A stretch of DNA of 43,030 nt from a virus. The stretch covers positions 1 through 43,030 of IMG/VR virus record IMGVR_UViG_3300042505_001447; one strand, written 5' to 3'. The number at the start of each line of letters is the position of its first letter. Within the stretch, counting starts at the first letter, position 1. This document shows positions 29,185 to 41,312 of the stretch, one piece after another. A program made the position numbers and the translations under genes. A model generated the notes under the pieces. The model made no database searches. It saw only the letters and a list, made by a program, of their open reading frames with translations, and was not told the origin of the DNA.

Positions 29185-29206
29185 ACCCCCGGCCTAGCTG
29201 GGGGTT
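29185..29206 (+). terminator. Intrinsic terminator, rightward
   Basis: The stem ACCCCCGGC...GCTGGGGGT is followed by TTTT on the plus strand. It ends the 28964 transcript. The csf1 stop codon (29194-29196) is inside the loop region, so the two transcripts converge here. Confidence 0.7.
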
Positions 29207-29868
29207 TTGCTTTGGGCCACATAGCTGAGCAGGTCCAGAAACCGGCTGCCCCGCACTGGCGCGATCTGGTCCTCCAGCGGCTGGTACTGGCTGATCGCCC
29301 GCATTAGCCTGTCGCTGTGGTACAGGCCGCTATCAATCTCCGTCTTACTGAACTCCAACGCCATTAGCCCCTCATAGCCAGCCAGGAGGCCCGTGAAGCG
29401 TTCCCGGCCTATCCACAGGGTATCTAGCTCGAACTGCACCGGGAAATGGTCTCTGCTATGGCCATCCTGGGCCCAGGGCAGCACATGTTTCTGGCCGGAC
29501 TCAGCGATGACGATGGTAAACGGTGGCTCCGGTGGCTCCAGCAGCCAGCCACGGATCTGAGCCCGGGTGGGTAAGTCCGAGACTACCGGGAAAGTGTCTT
29601 TGCCGATGGTCTTGGCCTCACCGATCACAGGCGACAGCAGCACATCGCCTTGGTACAACCGGCTCAAAGATCGGCCCCATAGCTTACTCCACTTGTCCTT
29701 GCCCTGATTCCAGTACCACAGCAGCTTTTCGTTGCCGTCAATGGCACCATAGCAGCGCCCGCATAGCTGGTCGGAGCCTGGGCAACGGGCCATGCTATGG
29801 CCGGTAAAGCTGTCTTTGAGCGCTAGGGGAAAGCTGGCGGGCTTGCCGCATAGGTAGCACTCAGCCAT
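29194..29868 (-). CDS. csf1: Csf1-like type IV CRISPR subunit (Cas8-like)
   Basis: Type IV effector subunit carrying a zinc finger. The 224-aa protein starts MAECYLCGKPASF and has CYLC (Cys4, Cys7) and LCGRC (Cys36, Cys39) around DSFTGHSMARCPGSDQ. This CxxC-x28-CxxC pattern with FT(G/N) and SD.LC motifs is what I know of Csf1. The remaining 180 residues are less conserved. The frame is open to 29937, but the ATG at 29868 overlaps the cysH stop (29861) by 8 bases, giving translational coupling. Context supports the call: cysH, csf2, csf3 and cas6 lie upstream on the same strand. Identity is from motif memory and synteny, not from a search. Confidence 0.7.
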   Translation of the reverse strand: MAECYLCGKPASFPLALKDSFTGHSMARCPGSDQLCGRCYGAIDGNEKLLWYWNQGKDKWSKLWGRSLSRLYQGDVLLSPVIGEAKTIGKDTFPVVSDLPTRAQIRGWLLEPPEPPFTIVIAESGQKHVLPWAQDGHSRDHFPVQFELDTLWIGRERFTGLLAGYEGLMALEFSKTEIDSGLYHSDRLMRAISQYQPLEDQIAPVRGSRFLDLLSYVAQSKTPS

Positions 29869-30604
29869 GGTCCGCAACCTCCGGAAAATGTTTACAAAAT
29901 TCAGCCCAAAATTCTGGATGATGCCGCCGCAGGTCACTCAGTCGCCCCCAGTTTACGCCAGTAGTCCCGATGGGTGGCCCATTGCGCACCGTCAGCCGGT
30001 CCCGGTCGTACATGGCAGGGTAGGGCAGTTGGTGAGAGTCGATATAGCACCAAATATCCTGGGTACTCCAGAAGCCGACCGGCGAACATACCCACAGGCC
30101 ATCCTTGCGCTGGTATAGCTCGCCCTTGCCCTTCAGGTATAGGCTACGGCCCCGCGACTCCTTCCGTAGCCCCCAGGCATAGCCTCGCACGCCATGGGCC
30201 TCCTGGTAGTCATCCAGCGGGCCATACATTAGCGCTGCATTAATGCGCTTGTCCAAGCCGGTCGCCATGGTGCCATCCAGGGGAATGCCATAGTCCTGGT
30301 ACAGCTTCAGTAGGCTGCGGGGTGGGCATAGCTCGATGATGTTCCAGCCCTGGCCTTGCAGGTGGTGAAGCAGCTCGATGCAGTCCGGCCATTCTGCCAA
30401 CGGCCCTTGGTTGACCCAGACAAAAGGGCAGTCCGGCCATACCTGGCGGATTAGGTGAGCCATTACCAAGCTATCCTTGCCGCCACTGACTGAGCCATAG
30501 GCGTAGCGATCTGTGGCCTCCAGCCAGCGGCCAATAACAGAAAGCGCCCGGTCAACCTTGCGGGTCAACCAGGGCGCTCGTGAGCCGGTGCCAGTGTTAA
30601 GCAA
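29861..30604 (-). CDS. CysH-like PP-loop ATPase of type IV locus
   Basis: A PAPS-reductase-family (adenine nucleotide alpha-hydrolase) protein, 247 aa. The PP-loop is SVSGGKDSLVMAHL (SGGKDS at residues 40-45). PFVWVNQGPLAEWPD, RGYAWGLRKESRGRSLYLKG and PVGFWSTQDIWCYI follow, matching the fold. The C-terminal ECGIHxG-type redox cysteine of true reductases is not seen, so it is probably not an assimilatory sulfate enzyme. CysH-like genes are the known companion of type IV-B CRISPR loci. There is no ATG: TTG at 30604 is the likely start and overlaps the upstream stop at 30597. TTG at 30568 is an alternative. Confidence 0.8.
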   Translation of the reverse strand: MLNTGTGSRAPWLTRKVDRALSVIGRWLEATDRYAYGSVSGGKDSLVMAHLIRQVWPDCPFVWVNQGPLAEWPDCIELLHHLQGQGWNIIELCPPRSLLKLYQDYGIPLDGTMATGLDKRINAALMYGPLDDYQEAHGVRGYAWGLRKESRGRSLYLKGKGELYQRKDGLWVCSPVGFWSTQDIWCYIDSHQLPYPAMYDRDRLTVRNGPPIGTTGVNWGRLSDLRRHHPEFWAEFCKHFPEVADHG

Positions 30605-30905
30605 GCTGCATCCGCTCGCTCATTGCATCCGCAAACCATTCGCGGATCTTGTCTTCGGCATTGTCATAAAAGTGAGTGTTGGAGTCGTCATCCCACTCTT
30701 CCTCGTTGAGGTGGGGAACGGTAAGAATGAGTCCGGGGCTATCGTACAGGTTCCCAACAGAACCCTTGTCCATAGTGCGGTAGGCGCCATCCTCAAACAG
30801 CTCAACAACGTAAGCACCGCCGCCCCAGGATGCTGCCGTGGAAGAATCAACGGTGGCCTCGAAGTCGCTGGACATGAAGTTATCGAAAGCTTGTTGAATA
30901 GTCAT
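30597..30905 (-). CDS. Acidic small protein, first gene of the cysH-csf1 operon
   Basis: A 102-aa, strongly acidic protein (NEEEWDDDSNTHFYDNAEDK near the C-terminus) with a central beta part (GGGAYVVELFEDGAYRTMDKG). It is the first gene after the perfect operator promoter and is coupled to cysH by an 8-base overlap. No family is recognised. Its acidic surface could mimic nucleic acid or regulate the complex; that is speculation. The ATG is at 30905 after a GAGGAC ribosome site. Confidence 0.6.
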   Translation of the reverse strand: MTIQQAFDNFMSSDFEATVDSSTAASWGGGAYVVELFEDGAYRTMDKGSVGNLYDSPGLILTVPHLNEEEWDDDSNTHFYDNAEDKIREWFADAMSERMQLA

Positions 30906-30924
30906 CAGTCAGTCCTCATAAGTG

Positions 30925-30966
30925 GTTCGATACCCTCAATATACCCCCCCTGTATCGAACTGTCAA
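30925..30966 (-). promoter_or_regulatory. Promoter/operator of the cysH-csf1 operon
   Basis: The same 49-base promoter/operator as at 28902, on the minus strand. TTGACA is at 30961-30966, 17 bases follow, and TATATT is at 30938-30943. Half-sites lie at 30952-30960 and 30925-30933. The -35 overlaps the cas6 stop codon at 30963, so the csf1 half of the locus has its own repressible promoter inside the longer operon. Confidence 0.85.
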
Positions 30967-31571
30967 CACTTTCCGACAAAATAGCCACAGCCTAGGCGCT
31001 GTCTACCTCCTAGCCCTTGCCGCTGGAGGGTCAGCGATGCCTCCGGCGATAGGTCGGCAAAGCTTACCCCGTAGCCCACCACGGTAGCATCCTTGATCCG
31101 CAGGGTTTTGCGCTCCCCCAGTACCGGCATAGCCTGTACCCCCAACCGTTCCAGCGCCTTGCCTAGGGCTATCCCGAACTCAAAAGGTGACACCTGGTCC
31201 TGGTACTGGGCTTTGATGGTCACCAGCCTTGCCTCTAGGCTAGGACATGGCTGCAGGGATGCACCCGTCAAGGTGCCTAGCTGCACCAGCGCCTTACCCA
31301 CCCGCAATACTTGATTGTCCAGGCTACCGAATAGCTCCAGATTGGCCAGCTCAGTCCGCACCCCTAGCCAGCTTTCGCTACCCAGTTGCACCCACCCCTG
31401 GCGGTCCGGGATACCGTTGATCGTCTTCAGCGACCAGGCCAATTCTTTCAACCCCGGTAGGCGTTCTACCAAGGCGCTATAGAGCCGGTAGCCATGGTCG
31501 GCGGGTATTCTATCGCCCTGCACCGGCCAGGCTAGCTGTATCCAGGCGGGCGGTGTGGACTGACATGGCAC
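30963..31571 (-). CDS. cas6: Cas6-type CRISPR RNA endoribonuclease
   Basis: Processes CRISPR repeat hairpins and often stays on the crRNA 3' end. The roughly 202-aa protein matches the Cas6 (cmx6/MYXAN-type) layout. WIQLAWPVQGDRIPADHGYRLYSAL opens the first RRM-like fold, with candidate catalytic His26 in PADHGY. WLGVRTELANLELFG is the middle strand, then RKTLRIKDATVVGYGVSFADL. The C-terminal Gly-rich loop is GLGGRQRLGCGYF (187-198). The frame is open to 31721, but the extra N-terminus overlaps csf3. A GTG at 31571 fits the domain start, though no clear ribosome site is seen. Cas6 is not expected in type IV-B. Confidence 0.75.
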   Translation of the reverse strand: MPCQSTPPAWIQLAWPVQGDRIPADHGYRLYSALVERLPGLKELAWSLKTINGIPDRQGWVQLGSESWLGVRTELANLELFGSLDNQVLRVGKALVQLGTLTGASLQPCPSLEARLVTIKAQYQDQVSPFEFGIALGKALERLGVQAMPVLGERKTLRIKDATVVGYGVSFADLSPEASLTLQRQGLGGRQRLGCGYFVGKC

Positions 31572-32238
31572 AGCGGGCTTTGTTGGCTGGCAGCCAGGCA
31601 GGGGGTCGCCAGCCCCAGTCGCGGATGGCAATATCAATCGGTCGGTCCCGGGGCAGGTGGACGGCGGGGATGGGTCGCATAAGTTTACCGTTTGGCCCCC
31701 ATAGATGCCAGTCGTGGTCATGGTCCTCTACCTCCCAGTTGGTAACTTGCCCGTAGCCATGGGCGCGTTTTTTGCCCAGCCCAGTACAGCCCTGCAATAA
31801 TGCCGCGATGCCGTCCCGGTCGCCCTGACAGTACCAAGTGATCGTCGGTGCCAGCCGCACAAACAAGGGCAGGTCGTAGGCTTTCTCCGCCCCCTGGCTG
31901 GTATCCCACTTTGCCTTGCGCTTCCCCCATGCCGGTGGTGGGCTATCGATCCCAGGTGCCCAGCGCTTCCTGAATTTGCTAACCGACTCATTGCGGTAGG
32001 TATAGCACGGACTAGAGGTTTGCCAGTACCAATCCTCGCCCAGCCAACCCTTAGCCAGTGGCATGTGCTCATCCACTACCGGGCGGCTAGCTTCTACGTC
32101 CTGGGCGCTAGGGTTGGGGGCCGCCATCCCCCGGGCATCGAGGATCAACCACTCTAGCAGGCTAGCTAGATCGGGACTCCAGTCATCAAAGACGGCAATG
32201 CCCGACGATAGCCGGGCGGTGACTCGCAGGTTAGCCAT
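31510..32238 (-). CDS. csf3: Csf3 (Cas5-like) type IV CRISPR subunit
   Basis: Cas5-like RAMP protein that caps the 5' end of the guide in class 1 complexes. The length is 242 aa. The Gly-rich RAMP loop is GLGKKRAHGYGQVTNW near residues 153-168. An N-terminal RRM-like strand (ANLRVTARLSSGIAVFDDW) precedes a long helix. KFRKRW and a Trp-rich region follow. The ATG at 32238 overlaps the csf2 stop (32231) by 8 bases, and cas6 overlaps its 3' end. The identity rests on the RAMP motif, size and order next to csf2. Confidence 0.75.
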   Translation of the reverse strand: MANLRVTARLSSGIAVFDDWSPDLASLLEWLILDARGMAAPNPSAQDVEASRPVVDEHMPLAKGWLGEDWYWQTSSPCYTYRNESVSKFRKRWAPGIDSPPPAWGKRKAKWDTSQGAEKAYDLPLFVRLAPTITWYCQGDRDGIAALLQGCTGLGKKRAHGYGQVTNWEVEDHDHDWHLWGPNGKLMRPIPAVHLPRDRPIDIAIRDWGWRPPAWLPANKARCAMSVHTARLDTASLAGAGR

Positions 32239-33394
32239 TGAGCAACCCCTTCAACTCGCTGGACTCCTGGGCCTGGGCTAGAAATTCCTGGTAGACGCTC
32301 AGATAGTCCTGATAGGCATGGTGGGCCTCCTGGGCGGTGCTGGATAGCGTCTGGTTGCCGGTGGCTAGCGATAGGAAGTGGCCGCGTTCCTGGCCACGCT
32401 GGTACCAAAATTCTAGTGATACCAGCCCATTGCCGCGGTTAGCCTTGCCGCCAATGTACGGCGACTTGGCAAACTGCAGTAGGGTATCGACTACCCAGCC
32501 AGTCTCGATGGCGGTGGTGTGCAGATCCCAGCGGCTATAGAGCCTGGAGCCAGCCATGATCAGCCGGTCGCTGGCGATCATCTGGTCAGACTTTTTGGCC
32601 TTATCCTCACCCTTAGCCTTTGGCTTGGCCTCGCCCAGCAGGCTCATCTGGCCTTCCTCTGCACCGCCTGGGAGAAACTTTTGCAACGCTGGATCGTGGG
32701 TACTATCGCGGCGGGTGGTTTGGTCTACCGTCAGGTACTGGGTCCAGTTGCGTAACATCTTGCGCAGGTAGGGCAGGTGGTCTGCCTTGGCCTGACGGTA
32801 GGCTTCAACCTGCTCAGTGGTGGGTGGCTCAAATGGGTTAGCCGTCAGCCTGTCTTTGCACTCCAGTAGTTCCTGCAGCCTGGGCAGTACATCTGGCGGC
32901 AATAGGCCAGGAAATTCCCGGTAGATCAGCTCCGCCGACTCGTAGCACAGCAGATACGCACTACCCACCGCCAAACGGCCATGGACCATCTGGGCATTCT
33001 TCACCCCGAACACCCCGGCAGGCTTGGCCGTACCCAGCACCGACAGCCAGGGCATCAACTGCCGGATGCGGGTGTCCAGGTCCATATCATTGGCGGTGCT
33101 GCCATCAATGCGGCCGCCAGCGAATAGGGTATGGTGAACATCTGGCGATACCTGCAGGGCCAGCGCATCCAGCACACTAGCCATGCCACGGCGGCGTAGG
33201 ATGCCATTGCGCAGCGCATTGCCGGAGTAGACAAAGCAGGAGACCGGGTTCCCCTCCAGGTCTAGCAGCTTGGCCGTCTTGAGGTTACTGACATTGCCTG
33301 CTACCTCGCCAATGTGGCTAAGCGGGCTTTGCAGGGTCACCTGGCAGTGCAGGGTGATCCGCTGCCGGTTGTGAATGTCGTAGGCTTCAAACAT
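32231..33394 (-). CDS. csf2: Csf2 (Cas7-like) type IV CRISPR backbone
   Basis: Cas7-type RAMP that would form the guide-bound helical backbone of the complex. The length is 387 aa. The N-terminus shows ITLHCQVTLQSPLSHIGE, then VYSGNALRNGILRRRGM, the Gly/Arg-rich segment known from Csf2/Cas7. FAGGRIDGSTANDMD follows. A charged insert (AKPKAKGEDKAKKSD) lies before DRLIMAGSRLYSRWDL. The C-terminal YIGGKANRGNGLVSLEFWY is the second Gly-rich loop. It is translationally coupled to the cas11-like gene upstream and csf3 downstream. This is the most secure member of the locus. Confidence 0.82.
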   Translation of the reverse strand: MFEAYDIHNRQRITLHCQVTLQSPLSHIGEVAGNVSNLKTAKLLDLEGNPVSCFVYSGNALRNGILRRRGMASVLDALALQVSPDVHHTLFAGGRIDGSTANDMDLDTRIRQLMPWLSVLGTAKPAGVFGVKNAQMVHGRLAVGSAYLLCYESAELIYREFPGLLPPDVLPRLQELLECKDRLTANPFEPPTTEQVEAYRQAKADHLPYLRKMLRNWTQYLTVDQTTRRDSTHDPALQKFLPGGAEEGQMSLLGEAKPKAKGEDKAKKSDQMIASDRLIMAGSRLYSRWDLHTTAIETGWVVDTLLQFAKSPYIGGKANRGNGLVSLEFWYQRGQERGHFLSLATGNQTLSSTAQEAHHAYQDYLSVYQEFLAQAQESSELKGLLNG

Positions 33395-33902
33395 CGGTGG
33401 TTACCTCTACGTCGATAGCATCGTCTGGCGCATCCTGGCCTAGCGCCCGGTCTTCCTCAAAGCGCAAGCGGCACAGCACCTGAATGATAGCCGCCCGGGT
33501 CCGGCATAGCTCCAGCACATCCCACTCGGTGAAGCCGTCCTTGGCGATCTGCTGCAGCAAGTCCCGCCAGCCGACAAAGACTAGCGCCTCATCCTGGGTC
33601 AGCTCCTGGATCTCGCTCAGGTCAGCGTTTACCCGTAGGATGCGCTGCTCTGGCTGCACGATGCCGGTTAGGACCGCTGGCCGTAAGTGGCTGATCAAGG
33701 CATTAACCAGGCGTTGTAGGTAGTCCTCCAGCGTGGTGGATACCTCAGCGCTGTTCTGGATAGTGGACTCCAGAAAGGTCCAGGTCTTGGTGCCCATCGC
33801 TGGACTTTTGGCCCGGTCGCGGCACTTAAACACCCAATAGCTAAGGGCTGCAGCTAGCCCATAGGCGCTATCAGAGGCATTGGAGAAACCAAAATAGTTC
33901 AT
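33387..33902 (-). CDS. Cas11-like small subunit candidate
   Basis: A 171-aa all-helical protein (MNYFGFSNASDSAYGLAAAL...), first in the leftward csf2-csf3-cas6 operon. It overlaps csf2 by 8 bases. Type IV-B loci place the helical cas11 directly before csf2, so position and fold class agree. By sequence alone I cannot confirm the family. The frame is open to 33950 (GTG), but the promoter-like elements at 33928-33955 would lie inside it, so the ATG at 33902 is preferred. The acidic C-terminus is EVTTDV. Confidence 0.5.
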   Translation of the reverse strand: MNYFGFSNASDSAYGLAAALSYWVFKCRDRAKSPAMGTKTWTFLESTIQNSAEVSTTLEDYLQRLVNALISHLRPAVLTGIVQPEQRILRVNADLSEIQELTQDEALVFVGWRDLLQQIAKDGFTEWDVLELCRTRAAIIQVLCRLRFEEDRALGQDAPDDAIDVEVTTDV

Positions 33903-33927
33903 AGGTCTTGACAAAACTGCCACCATG

Positions 33928-33955
33928 GTATCACAGCCCTGGCCAGCCACGACAA
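33928..33955 (-). promoter_or_regulatory. Candidate promoter of the csf2 operon
   Basis: On the minus strand TTGTCG (33950-33955), a 16-base spacer, and TGATAC (33928-33933), then about 25 bases to the ATG at 33902. It matches consensus moderately and does not carry the GTTCGATAC operator. The two halves of the type IV locus therefore seem to be controlled differently. Confidence 0.4.
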
Positions 33956-35000: not shown

Positions 35001-35085
35001 GAAAACCCCGACCAGGGCCGGGGCTGTACCAGTGTAAACAAATTCAAGCTTTATTGTAGCATAGCTAGCGGCTTTTAGTTGGGTT
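35001..35085. repeat. Duplicated terminator/leader cassette, copy B
   Basis: Second copy of the cassette at 34671. It begins within the 3' end of the CoiA-like gene, since the final Gln-Pro-Asn codons and stop form the AACCCAACTAA end. It includes a hairpin terminator (AGCCCCGG...GGTCGGGG then TTTTC on the minus strand). It separates the CoiA-like gene from the 34972 start. Confidence 0.8.
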
Positions 35086-36742
35086 GTGAAACTGAAGATC
35101 TCGCTAAACTTGATAAAGGGCGCCCAGATGCCCCTTTTTCGGGACTGATAACGGCAATGCGAGACTCAGTAGGTTCAATGCAAAGTCTGCCAGGGTTACG
35201 ACGATCCCATCCTAAACGCCCCCACGCCCACACCCGCCATCCTTCAGAAATATGGGCTCCAGCTATATCAGCAAGAGAGCCATAAATTTTAAGCTTCACA
35301 ACAATCTCGTCCGATTCTAAATATTGGGAATGCCGCAATAGCAATTCTTTCGGAAACAGCTCTGCAAATAATTCATTTCGGGAAAGGTGTCCCGCATTAG
35401 GACTAACGCATAAAAATTGACTAACCTCCAAGTTAGCAACAAACAAAGCGTCTTGCCCGGGTTTTTTGGGGAAGTACAATGGAGTCATTGAAATTACCCC
35501 TTTCACCCCCGGAGTCCCAATCTTGTTATCTCTAGCATTAGTGCGACCTTCGACTAATCTAGGGCCAACCAAATTAACAGACTCCGTCTGTGTAGCAGGC
35601 TCTAACGCATCAACCTCAATCAGACTGACTGACTCCGTAGGCACCATCTCGCCAGACGGAAACCCGCACAGCTTAATAAGATCAGGGCACTCTACGCTAG
35701 AACGCTCTGACACTTTGACGCGATAGCGCTCCAGCACCTCTTTTGCATGACGCTGATCCGAATTTTGGCAAGACTTTTTGTCAGCAGGCTTGTCTTGAGC
35801 ATTTTCAGATGTAAAACCCTTTAAGCTGCTTTGAGTTTGGTGCAAATGCTTAAATCCGATCTCGCCGAAATATTCTTGTGGAGTAATTAAAGTTAAAACC
35901 CCGTCGTTGCTTCCAGGTTCTCCCGAGATTTCGTACAGCAAAGATGGACGACCATGCTCCATCAAATACTTTAATGGCGGCCTAAACTCTCCAGTAGCCT
36001 TGCTTTTTTTAAACGTCCAAAGACATATATCCGCCACCTGCCTAAGATCTTGATCCCTGATCAACCAGTTATTAAAACCGCCGATCTTGGATTGCTGCAC
36101 TTCTACGGCAAACGAAAATGACACCGGCCCATAAGGGCTATCACCTTCAATCTTAAAAAAAAGATCTGGTCTACGGTTTACATCCTTAGTCGCCTTGAGA
36201 TTAAGTGTGGAAGAAACATCACAGCCCGGATACTGCTGCTCCAGATCCGTGATGCATTTAGATCTAATCCGCCTGATAACAGCCTCGTGCTCGGTATCTG
36301 CCCTGCACTTGCCGCCATGCCCAGGGAGATGACGGTAAGTCGGACGCCGCAAAGAGCTGGAGTTCGACTGAGTCGAAGACACTGCAAACCTAGTGTCTAT
36401 CCTAGGATCAAACTTGCCATCGCTAATCAATCTTGTCCGGCTTAAAATCTCTGCGGCCTCTGCGCACCTATCGCCAAATCCCTGAGCGTCAACTTGGCTT
36501 AACAGACTTTGATCGCGGAACAAAGCATATCCGCGAGAATCTCCCATTTGCTCAAATAAATCAGCCGTGCAGTACGGACAGCAGCTCAAGCCACCCTTGA
36601 ACCATTGACGGTCTAAGGACTGACGCTCGATCACTTTCGACAAGTCTGACGGAAACTTTTCTAGCTCGCCAATCCTGGCAGGCTTTATGGTGCATTCGTC
36701 AAATCGAGTTTCAGGGCGAATTACAAAGCTTGTAGTAACCAT
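35075..36742 (-). CDS. CoiA-like nuclease-domain protein
   Basis: A 555-aa protein. Residues 50-58 hold a Cys cluster (SCCPYC). Residues 140-220 match the CoiA-like PD-(D/E)xK nuclease core: the helix EHEAVIRRIRSK (Glu151/153), then RRPDLFF (Asp193) and FAVEVQQSKI (Glu214-x-Gln216), with the VEVQxS signature of CoiA. The C-terminal 300 residues are unknown. A/T-rich codons and no GGATCC suggest transfer. It is the first gene downstream of the hairpin array. Known type IV complexes lack a nuclease, so a nearby one is notable, but there is no direct link. Recombination or anti-phage roles are alternatives. Confidence 0.65.
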   Translation of the reverse strand: MVTTSFVIRPETRFDECTIKPARIGELEKFPSDLSKVIERQSLDRQWFKGGLSCCPYCTADLFEQMGDSRGYALFRDQSLLSQVDAQGFGDRCAEAAEILSRTRLISDGKFDPRIDTRFAVSSTQSNSSSLRRPTYRHLPGHGGKCRADTEHEAVIRRIRSKCITDLEQQYPGCDVSSTLNLKATKDVNRRPDLFFKIEGDSPYGPVSFSFAVEVQQSKIGGFNNWLIRDQDLRQVADICLWTFKKSKATGEFRPPLKYLMEHGRPSLLYEISGEPGSNDGVLTLITPQEYFGEIGFKHLHQTQSSLKGFTSENAQDKPADKKSCQNSDQRHAKEVLERYRVKVSERSSVECPDLIKLCGFPSGEMVPTESVSLIEVDALEPATQTESVNLVGPRLVEGRTNARDNKIGTPGVKGVISMTPLYFPKKPGQDALFVANLEVSQFLCVSPNAGHLSRNELFAELFPKELLLRHSQYLESDEIVVKLKIYGSLADIAGAHISEGWRVWAWGRLGWDRRNPGRLCIEPTESRIAVISPEKGASGRPLSSLARSSVSQPN

Positions 36743-36822: not shown

Positions 36823-36847
36823 GCCATAGGTTTACATTCGGGTTTCT

Positions 36848-37237
36848 CCCCCACCCTGTGGGGCACCTCCACCAAGCCGACTCACCCCCACCCTGTGGGG
36901 CACCTCCACCAAGCCGACTCACCCCCACCCCGTGGGGCACCTCCACCAAGCCGACTCACCCCCACCCCGTGGGGCCTCTGAAAAGCTACCGATCCACCCC
37001 CACCATCATGGGGCCATTAACCCTGTAGGAGTCACCCCCACCTAGTGGGGCACAGGAGCTAAACCGATCAACTCCCACCGTAGTGGGCCTCCACACCATC
37101 TCGAGACACTCCCACCGCAGTGGGGCCTTTATCCCGAGTGACACACCCCCACCTGGTGGGGCACCTTTCCCCAAGTCGAGACACCCCCACCGCAGTGGGC
37201 TCAAGAGTCGCAAGACACACCCCCACAACCGTGGGGC
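36848..37237. repeat. Array of 11 hairpin repeats with 36-38 bp period
   Basis: Eleven units, starting at 36848, 36885, 36922, 36959, 36997, 37035, 37072, 37109, 37146, 37184 and 37220. Each holds an inverted repeat CCCCAC(N3-6)GTGGGG, often preceded by GA(C/T)(A/T)CA. The linkers (about 18-21 bases) are identical in the first three units (ACCTCCACCAAGCCGACTCA) and differ in the others. Stems are kept while loops vary from 3 to 6 bases. The period is not a multiple of three, so it is not coding. It fills the roughly 500 bases between the CoiA-like gene and the 37243 gene. It is not a standard CRISPR array, as spacers would be too short, but leftward transcription would give a string of RNA hairpins. 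Confidence 0.9.
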
Positions 37238-37242
37238 CTGGC

Positions 37243-37428
37243 CTACGCCGCGTCGCGCTCATCCACTACCACCGGATCCAACACCTGCCGGGCCAGGGCC
37301 TGCATGGCTGGCGGGGCGTCCGGCTGGGCTAGCACCAGGGCGGCTAACTCCTTGGCCGCAGCCTGGGCGGCTTTGGTGCGGGCAATGCCCTTGCGGAAAA
37401 TAGCCTTCGACTGTGCGGTTAGTTGCAT
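37243..37428 (-). CDS. Small Ala-rich helical protein
   Basis: A 61-aa protein MQLTAQSKAIFRKGIARTKA..., helical and basic at the N-terminus, Ala-rich in the middle, with an acidic end (VVVDERDAA). The ATG at 37428 follows GAGGAGGAACC, a strong ribosome site. It overlaps the upstream gene by 10 bases and ends 6 bases from the hairpin array, so its transcript may run into the array. The function is unknown. Confidence 0.6.
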   Translation of the reverse strand: MQLTAQSKAIFRKGIARTKAAQAAAKELAALVLAQPDAPPAMQALARQVLDPVVVDERDAA

Positions 37429-38549: not shown

Positions 38550-39908
38550 TTAGTACTCCTCAAAGGTTGCATCGGAAAACCGCTGGTATTGCGGCTCAAA
38601 CAGAAGCTTGACGGTGCCAGTCGGGCCATTGCGGTTCTTGGTGACAATCACCTCGGCAATGCCCTTATCCGGCGTCTCCGGGTCGTAGTACTCATCCCGG
38701 TAGAGCATCATGATCAAGTCAGCGTCCTGCTCAATGGATCCAGACTCGCGCAAATCGCTCATCAGGGGCCGCTTATTCGTGCGAGACTCGACGCCCCGGC
38801 TAAGCTGGCTGAGCACCAGCACCGGGCAGTCCAGGTCCCTGGCCAGCATCTTGAGGCTGCGGGTAAGGTGGCCCAGCTCCATGGCCCGGTTGCCACTGGC
38901 CTGACCAAAATCCATCAACTGCAGGTAGTCGATCATGACCAGCCCCAGGGCACCATGGCGACGCTTTTGGCGGCGGCACTGGCTGCGGATGTAGCTAAAG
39001 CTAGGCGTGGAGCTGTGATCGATCCAGATCGGCCTATCGGCCAGGTTGGCGACGGTGCCAGCCAGGGTGGCCATTTGCTTGTCGGTGACAAGTCCCTTCT
39101 TCATCAAGCCTGTTTCAATGCTTGTCTCTGCCGAGAATAACCTGTATCCAAGCTGCTGTCTACCCATCTCTAGCGAAAAGATACAGGCTGTTAGTTGGGT
39201 TTTAACAGCCAAAAAATTAGCCAGGTTGAGGCTGAAGGCGGTCTTACCCATTGCAGGGCGGCCAGCGGCAATGATCAAGTCCCCGGGCATGAGCCCACCG
39301 TTTAGCATGACGTCCAACTGGGAGAAGCCGGTTTGATAGCCTGGCAGTTCCCGGCTCTCTAGCCTGGCCTCGACTTCGGTGTACACCTCGGCAGCGACTT
39401 CGGCCATGGGCACCAGGCCACCGGTGGACTCCTGCAGCATCAGAGCCGATAGCTCAGCTTCTGCCCGCTCTAGCAAGGCATCCAGCGGCACTTTCTCGTG
39501 CTGTAGCTGCACCATCAGCTGGCCCAGCTTGCCTAGCCGACGCCGGGTCCAGGTTTCCATGACCTGCTGGCAGTGCAGATCGACTGCCGCACCACTGACG
39601 ACGCTATCCAGGAAGCTGGCCAGGCCTGCCCGGCCACCGACCCTCTCCAACTGCTTGGCATCCAGCGCCATGGCCACCTGCAGCATATCGCAGGGGATGC
39701 CCCGGGCTAGCAAGCTTACGCAGGTTTCGTACAACAGGCGGTGTGAGTCGAGATAAAAGGCCTTGGGCGACAGCAGGTCCGAGACCTCCTCCAGCAAGTC
39801 TGGCTGGTAGAGTAGTGCGCCCAAGATGGCGCGTTCGGCCTCAATGGCCTGGGGCGGCAGTAGGCCATCCTCGCCCACAGGCACGGGTACTTTGACTTGA
39901 GCAATCAT
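38550..39908 (-). CDS. dnaB: Replicative DNA helicase DnaB
   Basis: Hexameric 5'-3' helicase that opens the phage replication fork. The length is 452 aa, as usual for DnaB. N-terminal domain: PPQAIEAERAILGALLYQPD. ATPase core: IIAAGRPAMGKTAFSLNLA (Walker A) and IFSLEMGRQQLGYRL. Then GLVMIDYLQLMDFG (Walker B) and LSQLSRGVESR, SGSIEQDADLIMMLYRDEYY. It overlaps the initiator gene by 4 bases (ATGA), so loader/initiator and helicase are made together. There is no intein. Confidence 0.93.
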   Translation of the reverse strand: MIAQVKVPVPVGEDGLLPPQAIEAERAILGALLYQPDLLEEVSDLLSPKAFYLDSHRLLYETCVSLLARGIPCDMLQVAMALDAKQLERVGGRAGLASFLDSVVSGAAVDLHCQQVMETWTRRRLGKLGQLMVQLQHEKVPLDALLERAEAELSALMLQESTGGLVPMAEVAAEVYTEVEARLESRELPGYQTGFSQLDVMLNGGLMPGDLIIAAGRPAMGKTAFSLNLANFLAVKTQLTACIFSLEMGRQQLGYRLFSAETSIETGLMKKGLVTDKQMATLAGTVANLADRPIWIDHSSTPSFSYIRSQCRRQKRRHGALGLVMIDYLQLMDFGQASGNRAMELGHLTRSLKMLARDLDCPVLVLSQLSRGVESRTNKRPLMSDLRESGSIEQDADLIMMLYRDEYYDPETPDKGIAEVIVTKNRNGPTGTVKLLFEPQYQRFSDATFEEY

Positions 39909-40825
39909 GCGTGTTCCCTCTGTTGGTGTTGGTTCATCTCCCGACGCACCCGGTCGTCATAGCTTTCCGTGGCCAGCTTAGCCTTTGGCCTGGCTGGCTG
40001 CAGGCTGGCTTGGTACTCAGCCCAGAGATATTCCAGTTTATCCCATTTGCCATCTCGCTCCAAGTTTGACACATGGTACATCGCCTTCGTCTTAGGGTTC
40101 ATCTGCCCGTCAACAACAATGTGCTTGCCAGCAACCATGAACTCGCAGAACTTTGGCAAGATCTTGCCCCACCCATTCTCCCGCCACGGCCTGGGCGCAA
40201 ACTGGGCCGCGAATGGATCAGGCTTGGATGGATCCACTGCGGCCACCGGCGCGGCGGCGGGCGGCGCAACAGTTCTTTCTGGATCCAGCTTGCTGGTTTT
40301 CACTTTTTTTTCACTTTTGACAGGCGCAGTAAAAAAAAGATCTTTGGATAGATCATCTGGATCTGTTCTTACTGGATAGATCGTCTGCAGATTCTGCACC
40401 CCCTCCCCTGCAGATTCTGCAGGCCCCCCCTGCATATTCTGCAGTACCCCCTGCATATTCTGCAGGCCCCCCCCTGCATATTCTGCAGTGGGGCGGGGTA
40501 ATTTTGGGTCTGGTTCTGGATCCAGATCATTGGTTTGGATGGCACCAAAGTCGATGAATTGATCGCTTGAGGTTTGGCCGCCATCAGCCCTGAACCGATC
40601 CGTTAGCTGCAGGATGCCTTTAGCCTTGAGGCTATCCCGGGTTTGGTAGATCACTCGCTGACAAAGGCTAGTCATCCTGGCCTGGGTTTCCACTGACGGC
40701 CAGCACCGCCCGTCAGCGCCGATAAAGCTATTCAGGCAAAGCAACAACAGCTTTTCGTTGCGGCTAAGGCTGGATTCCCAGATGATCTGTTCGCGCTGGT
40801 AGGCAGGGAGAAAGGCTGTGCCCAT
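39905..40825 (-). CDS. Replication initiator with winged-helix domain
   Basis: A 306-aa protein. N-terminal: AYQREQIIWESSLSRNEKLLLLCLNS, then CWPSVETQARMTSLCQRVIYQTRDSLKAKGILQL, a winged-helix typical of phage and plasmid initiators. The middle (about residues 112-150) is encoded by the iteron cluster, producing repeats of LQNMQG-like text (AGGGLQNMQGVLQNMQGG). The C-terminus (WGKILPKFCEFMVAGKHIVV) resembles a DnaB-loading end. The frame is open to 40984, but the ATG at 40825 follows GGAG and lies outside the upstream gene. The pair with dnaB parallels lambda O and P. Confidence 0.75.
   Translation of the reverse strand: MGTAFLPAYQREQIIWESSLSRNEKLLLLCLNSFIGADGRCWPSVETQARMTSLCQRVIYQTRDSLKAKGILQLTDRFRADGGQTSSDQFIDFGAIQTNDLDPEPDPKLPRPTAEYAGGGLQNMQGVLQNMQGGPAESAGEGVQNLQTIYPVRTDPDDLSKDLFFTAPVKSEKKVKTSKLDPERTVAPPAAAPVAAVDPSKPDPFAAQFAPRPWRENGWGKILPKFCEFMVAGKHIVVDGQMNPKTKAMYHVSNLERDGKWDKLEYLWAEYQASLQPARPKAKLATESYDDRVRREMNQHQQREHA
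40385..40488. repeat. Iteron cluster, probable replication origin
   Basis: Five copies of CTGCA(G/T)ATTCTGCAG start at 40385 (14 of 15 bases), 40408, 40430, 40451 and 40474, spaced 21-23 bases, two helical turns apart. They lie inside the initiator gene, as in lambda ori within O. The stretch 40305-40345 has runs of A and T (TTTTTTTTCACTTTT, AAAAAAAAGATC) that would serve as an unwinding element. No direct evidence of firing. Confidence 0.75.
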
Positions 40826-40877
40826 AGGAACTCCTTGGGTGTGAGGGTGGATAGGGGAAAGGGAACACAAGACAGGG

Positions 40878-41312
40878 TTAGGCCAGGTAATAGGCTGAGT
40901 TTTTCCTGACAAACATGGGGCTGTGGATGGCAACCGCCCGGCCATAGAGGCCCAGCTGTAGCCCAATCTGATAGCGCACCACATAGCGCTTGCCTTTCAT
41001 GAGCGCCACGATCTGCCGCTCGTAGTCGGCAAAGCATTCTGGCTCCATGGCCTGGGCTAGCCATTCGCTGGCCTGCATGGCTACCTGTCGCTTGGCGGCT
41101 TTGACCTCTGGCGGAGTGGTATTCTCTGGATCATGGGCCACTGGATCCAGGCGTTCGCCAGCCACTAGCCGGGCATAGCGCAGGGCACTAGCCGGGTCGT
41201 AGGTCAGCATGGACTCAAAGACAAGTAGACGCCCCCTCAAGTTAAGGGCCCGCCAGTGCTGTGGCTGCAGCTGACGGACCACTGCAGGGGCGCTTAGGAC
41301 AGCACCCTTCAT
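40878..41312 (-). CDS. Uncharacterised early protein
   Basis: A 144-aa protein MKGAVLSAPAVVRQLQPQHW..., with helices (RLLVFESMLTYDPASALRYARLVAGE) and a basic C-terminal part (ALMKGKRYVVRYQIGLQLGLYGRAV). It overlaps the gene upstream by 4 bases and lies before the initiator. No family is recognised. A DNA-binding or replication role is possible from place only. Confidence 0.6.
   Translation of the reverse strand: MKGAVLSAPAVVRQLQPQHWRALNLRGRLLVFESMLTYDPASALRYARLVAGERLDPVAHDPENTTPPEVKAAKRQVAMQASEWLAQAMEPECFADYERQIVALMKGKRYVVRYQIGLQLGLYGRAVAIHSPMFVRKNSAYYLA

Follow-up and report, generated by a model that had tools for sequence, protein, structure and literature searches.

The systems closest to the locus described here are of several kinds, and each resembles it in part. 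CreA, i.e., the guide RNAs of CRISPR-regulated toxin-antitoxin systems, consists of degenerate repeats and a shortened spacer, which measures 20 nt in type I-F, with an 8-nt handle, and represses genes in a nuclease-independent way (PMC10097628). Racrs are repeat-like RNAs encoded by phages, i.e., solitary repeats that lie away from cas genes, often just past a promoter, and that act via Cas6f/Cas7f (PMC10651486). Viruses are also reported to carry mini-CRISPR arrays and Cas genes of their own, including the IV-B system of Fuxivirus with its CysH gene (PMC10848311). Type IV-B systems usually have neither Cas6 nor an array, and the Mycobacterium sp. JS623 megaplasmid combines IV-B with I-E on one element, although its IV-B complex did not prefer crRNAs (PMC7937560). 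Regarding the length of the guide, a stable I-F1 Cascade has a lower spacer limit near 14 nt and varies in 6-nt steps (PMC7296934), guides under 26 nt repress in type I-B (PMC10551041), and a minimal I-E Cascade is able to silence even when Cas11 is missing (PMC12235044).

The array reported here also has degenerate repeats flanking a shortened spacer with a 5' handle; however, CreA is a single unit that relies on the host effector and has a known nearby target, whereas the phage has arrays, its own effector, and no target among the sequences searched. It shares with Racrs a phage-encoded, repeat-like RNA that often follows a promoter, but it forms arrays and is accompanied by the phage's own cas6e. 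The viral mini-arrays contain one to few conventional repeats and offer no counterpart to the dozens-strong family of degenerate short-spacer units described here. A 74-kb relative of our virus, like JS623, carries both IV-B and I-E, but JS623 is a plasmid and its I-E system has an ordinary array.

The array and its genomic setting

The window, i.e., the whole stretch of 43,030 nucleotides that was analyzed, represents part of a phage genome from IMG/VR and lacks the genome ends. It maps to 24.4-69.0 kb of the 74-kb relative (G004), over 71% of its length and mostly at 92-96% identity, and this relative looks complete because its ends overlap by 127 bp. The nearest relatives of Cas7, Cas7e, and the terminase point to a virus of bacteria, probably with a cyanobacterial host. 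Read leftward, the window contains replication genes, small genes, a 61-aa gene, the array, a 555-aa gene, and a type IV-B-like operon (Table 1). The slot after the array (35075-36742) holds a different cargo gene in each relative while the array stays, and on this comparative evidence it is an insertion hotspot adjoining the array. A ~22-bp repeat that occurs about 4.7 times at 40385-40489, within the O-like initiator gene, likely represents the origin iterons of the phage.

Table 1. Features of the window, with hairpins numbered in the order of transcription
Feature	Position	Strand	Remarks
O-like initiator	39905-40984		replication gene
DnaB	38550-39908		replication gene
61-aa gene, function not assigned	37243-37428	-	directly upstream of array; conserved anchor in 8 related contigs
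Whole CRISPR-like hairpin array	36849-37236	-	14-17-nt spacers
Hairpin 1	37221-37236	-	loop GGTT, tag GTGTGTC; starts 7 nt past stop codon of gene 37243-37428
Hairpin 2	37185-37199	-	loop TGCG (UNCG type), tag GTGTCTC
Hairpin 3	37147-37161	-	loop CAG, tag GTGTGTC
Hairpin 4	37111-37125	-	loop TGCG, tag GTGTCTC, 5-bp stem
Hairpin 5	37074-37087	-	loop TACG, tag GTTGATC, 5-bp stem
Hairpin 6	37036-37050	-	loop TAG, tag GTGACTC
Hairpin 7	36998-37013	-	loop GATG closed by U.G, tag GTGGATC
Hairpin 8	36960-36974	-	loop GGG, tag GTGAGTC
Hairpin 9	36923-36937	-	loop GGG, tag GTGAGTC
Hairpin 10	36886-36900	-	loop AGG, tag GTGAGTC
Hairpin 11 (terminal)	36849-36863	-	loop AGG; then GAGAAACCC in place of GTnnnTC tag
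555-aa gene, function not assigned	35075-36742	-	between array and IV-B operon
Cas11-like small subunit, type IV	33387-33950	-	PADLOC 1.8e-5
Csf2/Cas7, type IV	32231-33394	-	PADLOC 2.2e-39; TIGR03115 3.1e-9
Csf3/Cas5, type IV	31510-32238	-	PADLOC 9e-42; TIGR03116 5.7e-14
Cas6/Cmx6 of IV-B-like operon	30963-31721	-	TIGR02807 6.7e-46, above cut-off
CysH-like (PAPS reductase family), typical of type IV-B	29861-30604	-	PF01507 1.3e-11
Csf1/Cas8, type IV	29194-29937	-	PADLOC 1.9e-24; TIGR03114 3.7e-10

The eleven stem-loops recur with a start-to-start spacing of 36-38 bp (core to core, up to one base more), in agreement with the first-pass annotation of this DNA. The oriented motif has 10 matches in the real window compared with 0.3 in shuffled versions of it; the count is ten because the terminal hairpin is without the GTnnnTC tag, which on the minus strand follows every other hairpin and had escaped the first-pass annotation. 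On the RNA strand the unit can be written CCCAC-N3/4-GTGGG-V-GTnnnTC, and 14-18 nt of spacer come after it. All units retain the CCCAC/GTGGG core, with the exception of one U.G pair in unit 5 (here and in the next sentences units are counted along the plus strand, i.e., opposite to Table 1), and most units add a sixth C-G pair. Loops are of 3 nt in units 1-4, 6, and 9 and of 4 nt in units 5, 7, 8, 10, and 11; the range of 3 to 6 bases given earlier arose from unit 5 (36999-37012), whose apparent 6-nt loop is reduced to 4 nt by the minus-strand U.G pair, and this hairpin (36998-37013) folds more stably as minus-strand RNA (-8.9) than in antisense (-6.7). The paired shortening described for units 7 and 10 is in fact the loss of the outermost stem pair in units 7, 8, and 10, with no compensatory change. 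As for the linkers, which had been called variable, some do vary, but the first three are identical to each other.

The array end after the terminal hairpin, on the GAGAAACCC side, is conserved in seven of the eight aligned loci. Comparison with Rfam returned no matching family for the hairpin array. Coding repeats were ruled out, as the unit lengths differ modulo 3 and stops occur in every frame, and so was stop-codon bypass or readthrough, an idea raised by the constant 7-nt distance from stop codon to hairpin, as the downstream frame is inconsistent.

A family of arrays and the strand of the hairpins

Searches with the 61-aa gene and with the hairpin pattern located a homologous array at the same locus in eight related viral contigs. 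Apart from lost and duplicated units, the unit order (A-H) is preserved, and none of the aligned family loci shows a run of new spacers at an array end. The relatives of ~75 kb contain 41, 42, and 51 hairpins in about 11 clusters each, compared with 0.1-0.35 hairpins in shuffled sequences. The clusters are of two kinds. Those of the first kind begin 4-9 nt past a same-strand stop codon, as do 16 of 40 clusters when a conservative gene set is used, versus ~3% expected at random intergenic positions. Those of the second kind follow an extended -10 box, TGTGCTATAGT, at a distance of 36-47 nt or are located near it, and 13 of the 21 TGnTATAnT sites in five contigs stand 36-47 nt before a cluster. 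Across the family, spacers fall into length classes of 14-18, 21-22, 26-27, and 38-52 nt, with none of 28-37 nt.

Long-period arrays (62-77 bp) are also found, in contigs L113 (6066-6505 and 14567-15017) and L013 (3164-3800), with the repeat CGCAAACACCTCCCCACTTCGGTGGGGGTTTCTC; a promoter of their own and the conserved leader AGGAACCTTGACAACTTGGTGGTA precede them, and at the far end they pass into short-period units. The conserved end of the window array (36832-36848, minus strand GAGAAACCCGAATGTAAACC) and the GGTTTCTC tag of these long-period arrays are exact reverse complements of each other.

Among 185 distinct tag-oriented family hairpins there are three compensatory stem pairs and 25 stem variants that form wobbles in the sense orientation (17 G.U and 8 U.G), while antisense-only wobbles number zero; in addition, UNCG accounts for 81 of the 158 four-base loops and its antisense equivalent for one. 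These units are related and the events are hence not independent, but the asymmetry is complete nonetheless. From the wobble and UNCG asymmetry in tag-oriented units it follows that the RNA strand in the window is the minus strand, and the comparison of family members thus indicates that the hairpins are selected as RNA. The first-pass annotation had argued for RNA hairpins from loop length; that they are RNA, on the minus strand, stands, although the wobbles and UNCG loops are better evidence for it. The fold energy of the whole array adds a modest signal (z of -2.5 on the minus strand and -0.9 on the plus strand).

Type I-E and type IV-B components

The phage hairpin plus its tag corresponds to the 3' two-thirds of a known class of type I-E repeat (GTCTTCCCCACGCCCGTGGGGGTGTTTC). 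When a tandem two-copy pattern derived from the phage unit was searched in bacterial genomes, at least 119 stretches matched, and nearly all of the matches listed are arrays with a 61-bp period and repeats such as GTCTTCCCCACGCCCGTGGGGGTGTTTC; being built from the phage unit, the pattern selects repeats of that form. At forty of the matched array loci, genes homologous to the phage cas5e, cas6e, or cas7e are present as well. The single unit motif was found in one of 386 cyanobacterial genomes, the Thermosynechococcus sp. WC_1 MAG, within an I-E array (GTTTTCCCCACATGCGTGGGGGTGGTTC). Both the GTCTTCCCCACGCCCGTGGGGGTGTTTC class and the WC_1 MAG array share with the phage a CCCCAC/GTGGGG hairpin followed by GTnnnTC, and the GTCTTCCCCACGCCCGTGGGGGTGTTTC-class loci encode Cas5e, Cas6e, and Cas7e homologous to the phage proteins.

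Such an I-E module occurs in the full-length relatives. In G004 and in two relatives of 73 and 77 kb (G008 and G009), Cas6e (PF08798, 1.5e-31), Cas7e (PF09344, 4.9e-69), and a short Cas5e (PADLOC, 9e-41) are encoded in a single operon, in which both cas6e and cas5e are followed by hairpins. The phage Cas6e conserves a catalytic-type His and a glycine-rich GIGREKAYGCG loop and matches Cse3/CasE structures by sequence. A 273-aa ORF divergent to this operon matches, at 31%, a short Cas8e-like ORF beside cas7e in the WC_1 MAG; we call it Cas8e-like tentatively, because the PADLOC match to Cas8e is weak (3e-4) and belongs to the WC_1 ORF. The 273-aa ORF gave no Cse1 Pfam match and no PDB match, and an AlphaFold model of the Cas8e-like protein was uninformative (pLDDT 31). 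As the module lies outside the 43-kb window, whose genome ends are missing, we infer its presence in the window's own virus. The WC_1 MAG contig (L174, 4074-6900) contains the nearest relative of the phage module, a split I-E locus in which a short cas5e is followed by an array and a divergent short cas8e-like ORF plus cas7e by another, next to a DNA cytosine methyltransferase.

The array has the Cas6e-type hairpin and the 7-8-nt handle of an I-E repeat, but it departs from the GTCTTCCCCACGCCCGTGGGGGTGTTTC class in several ways. Its repeats, rather than being near-identical over 28-29 nt, differ from one another in the loop, the tag triplet, and the outer pair; the spacers are mostly of 14-18 or 38-52 nt, not a uniform 32-33 nt; and the clusters are scattered through the genome with no Cas1/2/3. 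Cas1 and the Cas3 HD domain were sought in the full-length relatives, G004 among them, and neither was found. Because the uniform repeats and spacers, Cas1, and Cas3 were all tested for and are absent, we do not class the array with the standard type I-E systems.

The window itself encodes a second set of Cas proteins. The operon at 29194-33950 comprises the type IV-B gene set, i.e., Csf1, Csf2, Csf3, Cas11, and a CysH-like protein, and departs from the usual cas6-less state of IV-B by having its own Cas6/Cmx6; the Cas6 gene that the first-pass annotation placed 5 kb from the array is real. The closest relative of this operon is on the Gloeobacter morelensis plasmid pGMOR1 (Csf2 55% identical), and a cupin-domain gene is also present in that operon. 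On this plasmid (L129, 24036-24655), eight irregularly spaced copies of GATCCGAGTTTGTCGCGTAT are located ~8 kb downstream of the IV-B operon.

Mechanism, spacers, and rival explanations

The reading that we favor, to which we give about even chances, takes the hairpins for a degenerate crRNA array that serves a nuclease-free, type I-E-like system encoded by the phage, with truncated guides and CreA-type repression. Leftward transcription would make the array the 3' end of the small-gene operon that closes with the 61-aa gene, and each hairpin with its GTnnnTC tag would serve as a Cas6e-type repeat. Cleavage by the phage Cas6e would take place where each hairpin ends on its 3' side; in each resulting small RNA, a 7-8-nt 5' handle would precede a truncated guide of ~14-16 nt, with the hairpin at the 3' end. 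On these RNAs, Cas5e, Cas7e, and the Cas8e-like protein could assemble into shortened Cascades that would bind without cutting and thereby repress genes.

In favor of this reading are the family of arrays at one locus, the I-E form of the repeat, the cas genes of the full-length relatives, the strand signature, the placement of clusters behind promoter-like boxes and stop codons, and the length classes of the spacers, considered together with the published limits for truncated guides. The spacers themselves point both ways. In order-matched units across contigs they are conserved at 0.92, versus 0.65 for loops and 0.71 for the tag triplet, in a comparison where units are recognized partly by their spacers and where hairpin recombination could also scramble loops and tags. 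The short length classes are roughly 6N-4, as for Cas7, but this 6-nt periodicity is only suggestive because a period scan peaks at 5, not 6, and the units are related. Spacer targets in the phage's own and related genomes did not exceed the shuffled expectation, and this includes partial matches to a nearby (toxin) promoter of the kind known for CreA; none were found in phage records or, among mobile elements, in the limited databases searched, and none in IMG/VR for two long spacers. This result counts against guides, and the position of the I-E module outside the window, the degenerate repeats, the non-standard spacer lengths, and the weak Cas8e assignment likewise speak against the favored reading.

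Two explanations would dispense with Cas proteins. The hairpins could be 3'-UTR stabilizers, transcription attenuators, or BIME/REP-like palindromes that gather after genes, which would suit the many clusters that start 7-8 nt past stop codons in sense orientation, some T-rich tags (GTTTTTC), and the UNCG loops, which are typical of stable terminator hairpins. Most tags in the window, such as GTGAGTC, nevertheless have no run of U, and terminators are matched no more often than by chance (2 found versus 1.9 expected); moreover, this explanation would not lead one to expect a conserved GT..TC tag, a resemblance to CRISPR repeats, cas genes, or conserved spacers, and we regard it as improbable. 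A DNA site, i.e., the partition or iteron array for a protein dimer mentioned in the first-pass annotation, would account for regular palindromes near replication genes, but it is very improbable given strand-specific wobble pairs and UNCG loops, repeats that are not strand-symmetric, up to eleven clusters per relative genome, and the separate iterons in the O-like gene.

The remaining two involve Cas proteins in other roles. A short-guide array and an RNA decoy, both named in the earlier annotation, are still the two leading readings, with the decoy being unlikely yet worth serious consideration. Here the hairpins would mimic host CRISPR repeats and titrate host Cas6/Cas7, as a multicopy relative of the Racrs, and the phage Cas proteins would join dead complexes. 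The promoter-proximal position of many Racrs (PMC10651486) has a parallel in the 13 promoter-like boxes that precede clusters, and a decoy would also fit the very high hairpin copy number in relatives and the spacers for which the searched genomes and phage records hold no target. It sits less well with arrays accompanied by a phage cas6e rather than solitary repeats away from cas genes, with spacers better conserved than loops, which a pure decoy would not need, and with a repeat form so rare in the sampled cyanobacteria. Alternatively, the array could be the guide source of the neighboring IV-B operon and be cut by its Cas6/Cmx6, a quite doubtful proposal even though array and operon are on one strand, 5 kb apart, and this Cas6 is intact; acquiring Cas6 and array together would make sense because IV-B is normally without both (PMC7937560). 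However, the 73- and 77-kb relatives keep the array and the I-E module without the IV-B Cas7 and Cas6, others likewise retain the array without them, and hairpins of this type were found neither in the Gloeobacter plasmid operon nor in a viral contig that is 81% identical and just 7.8 kb long. Since two array-bearing relatives are without the IV-B proteins and two IV-B operons elsewhere are without the hairpins, the I-E Cas6e appears the likelier nuclease for the array; with the I-E module lying elsewhere and the repeat being I-E in form, the earlier link to the Cas6 at 30963 is probably wrong, although both Cas6 enzymes may act on the array.

Beyond the truncated-guide array itself, we tentatively propose, as a possibility, that this phage lineage turned a captured I-E system into a genome-wide device for RNA regulation or processing. 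Its parts would be a nuclease-free Cascade served by a Cas6e of its own and dozens of degenerate hairpin arrays with short guides. These arrays would sit behind promoters and within 3' UTRs and would be passed on and reshuffled with no new spacers being acquired; some of the genomes also have a IV-B system that brings its own Cas6. If true, a viral CRISPR system would have shed both adaptation and cutting, and its guides would be near the shortest length reported to support Cascade. It would offer natural tests of truncated guides as repressors, of what a phage gains from nuclease-free Cascades, and of a IV-B complex using guides from a type I-E Cas6 in the same genome, and repeat finders tuned to uniform arrays would miss such systems. 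Together, the hairpin arrays and the nuclease-free complex suggest that these phages use CRISPR-type small RNAs for purposes other than DNA cutting.
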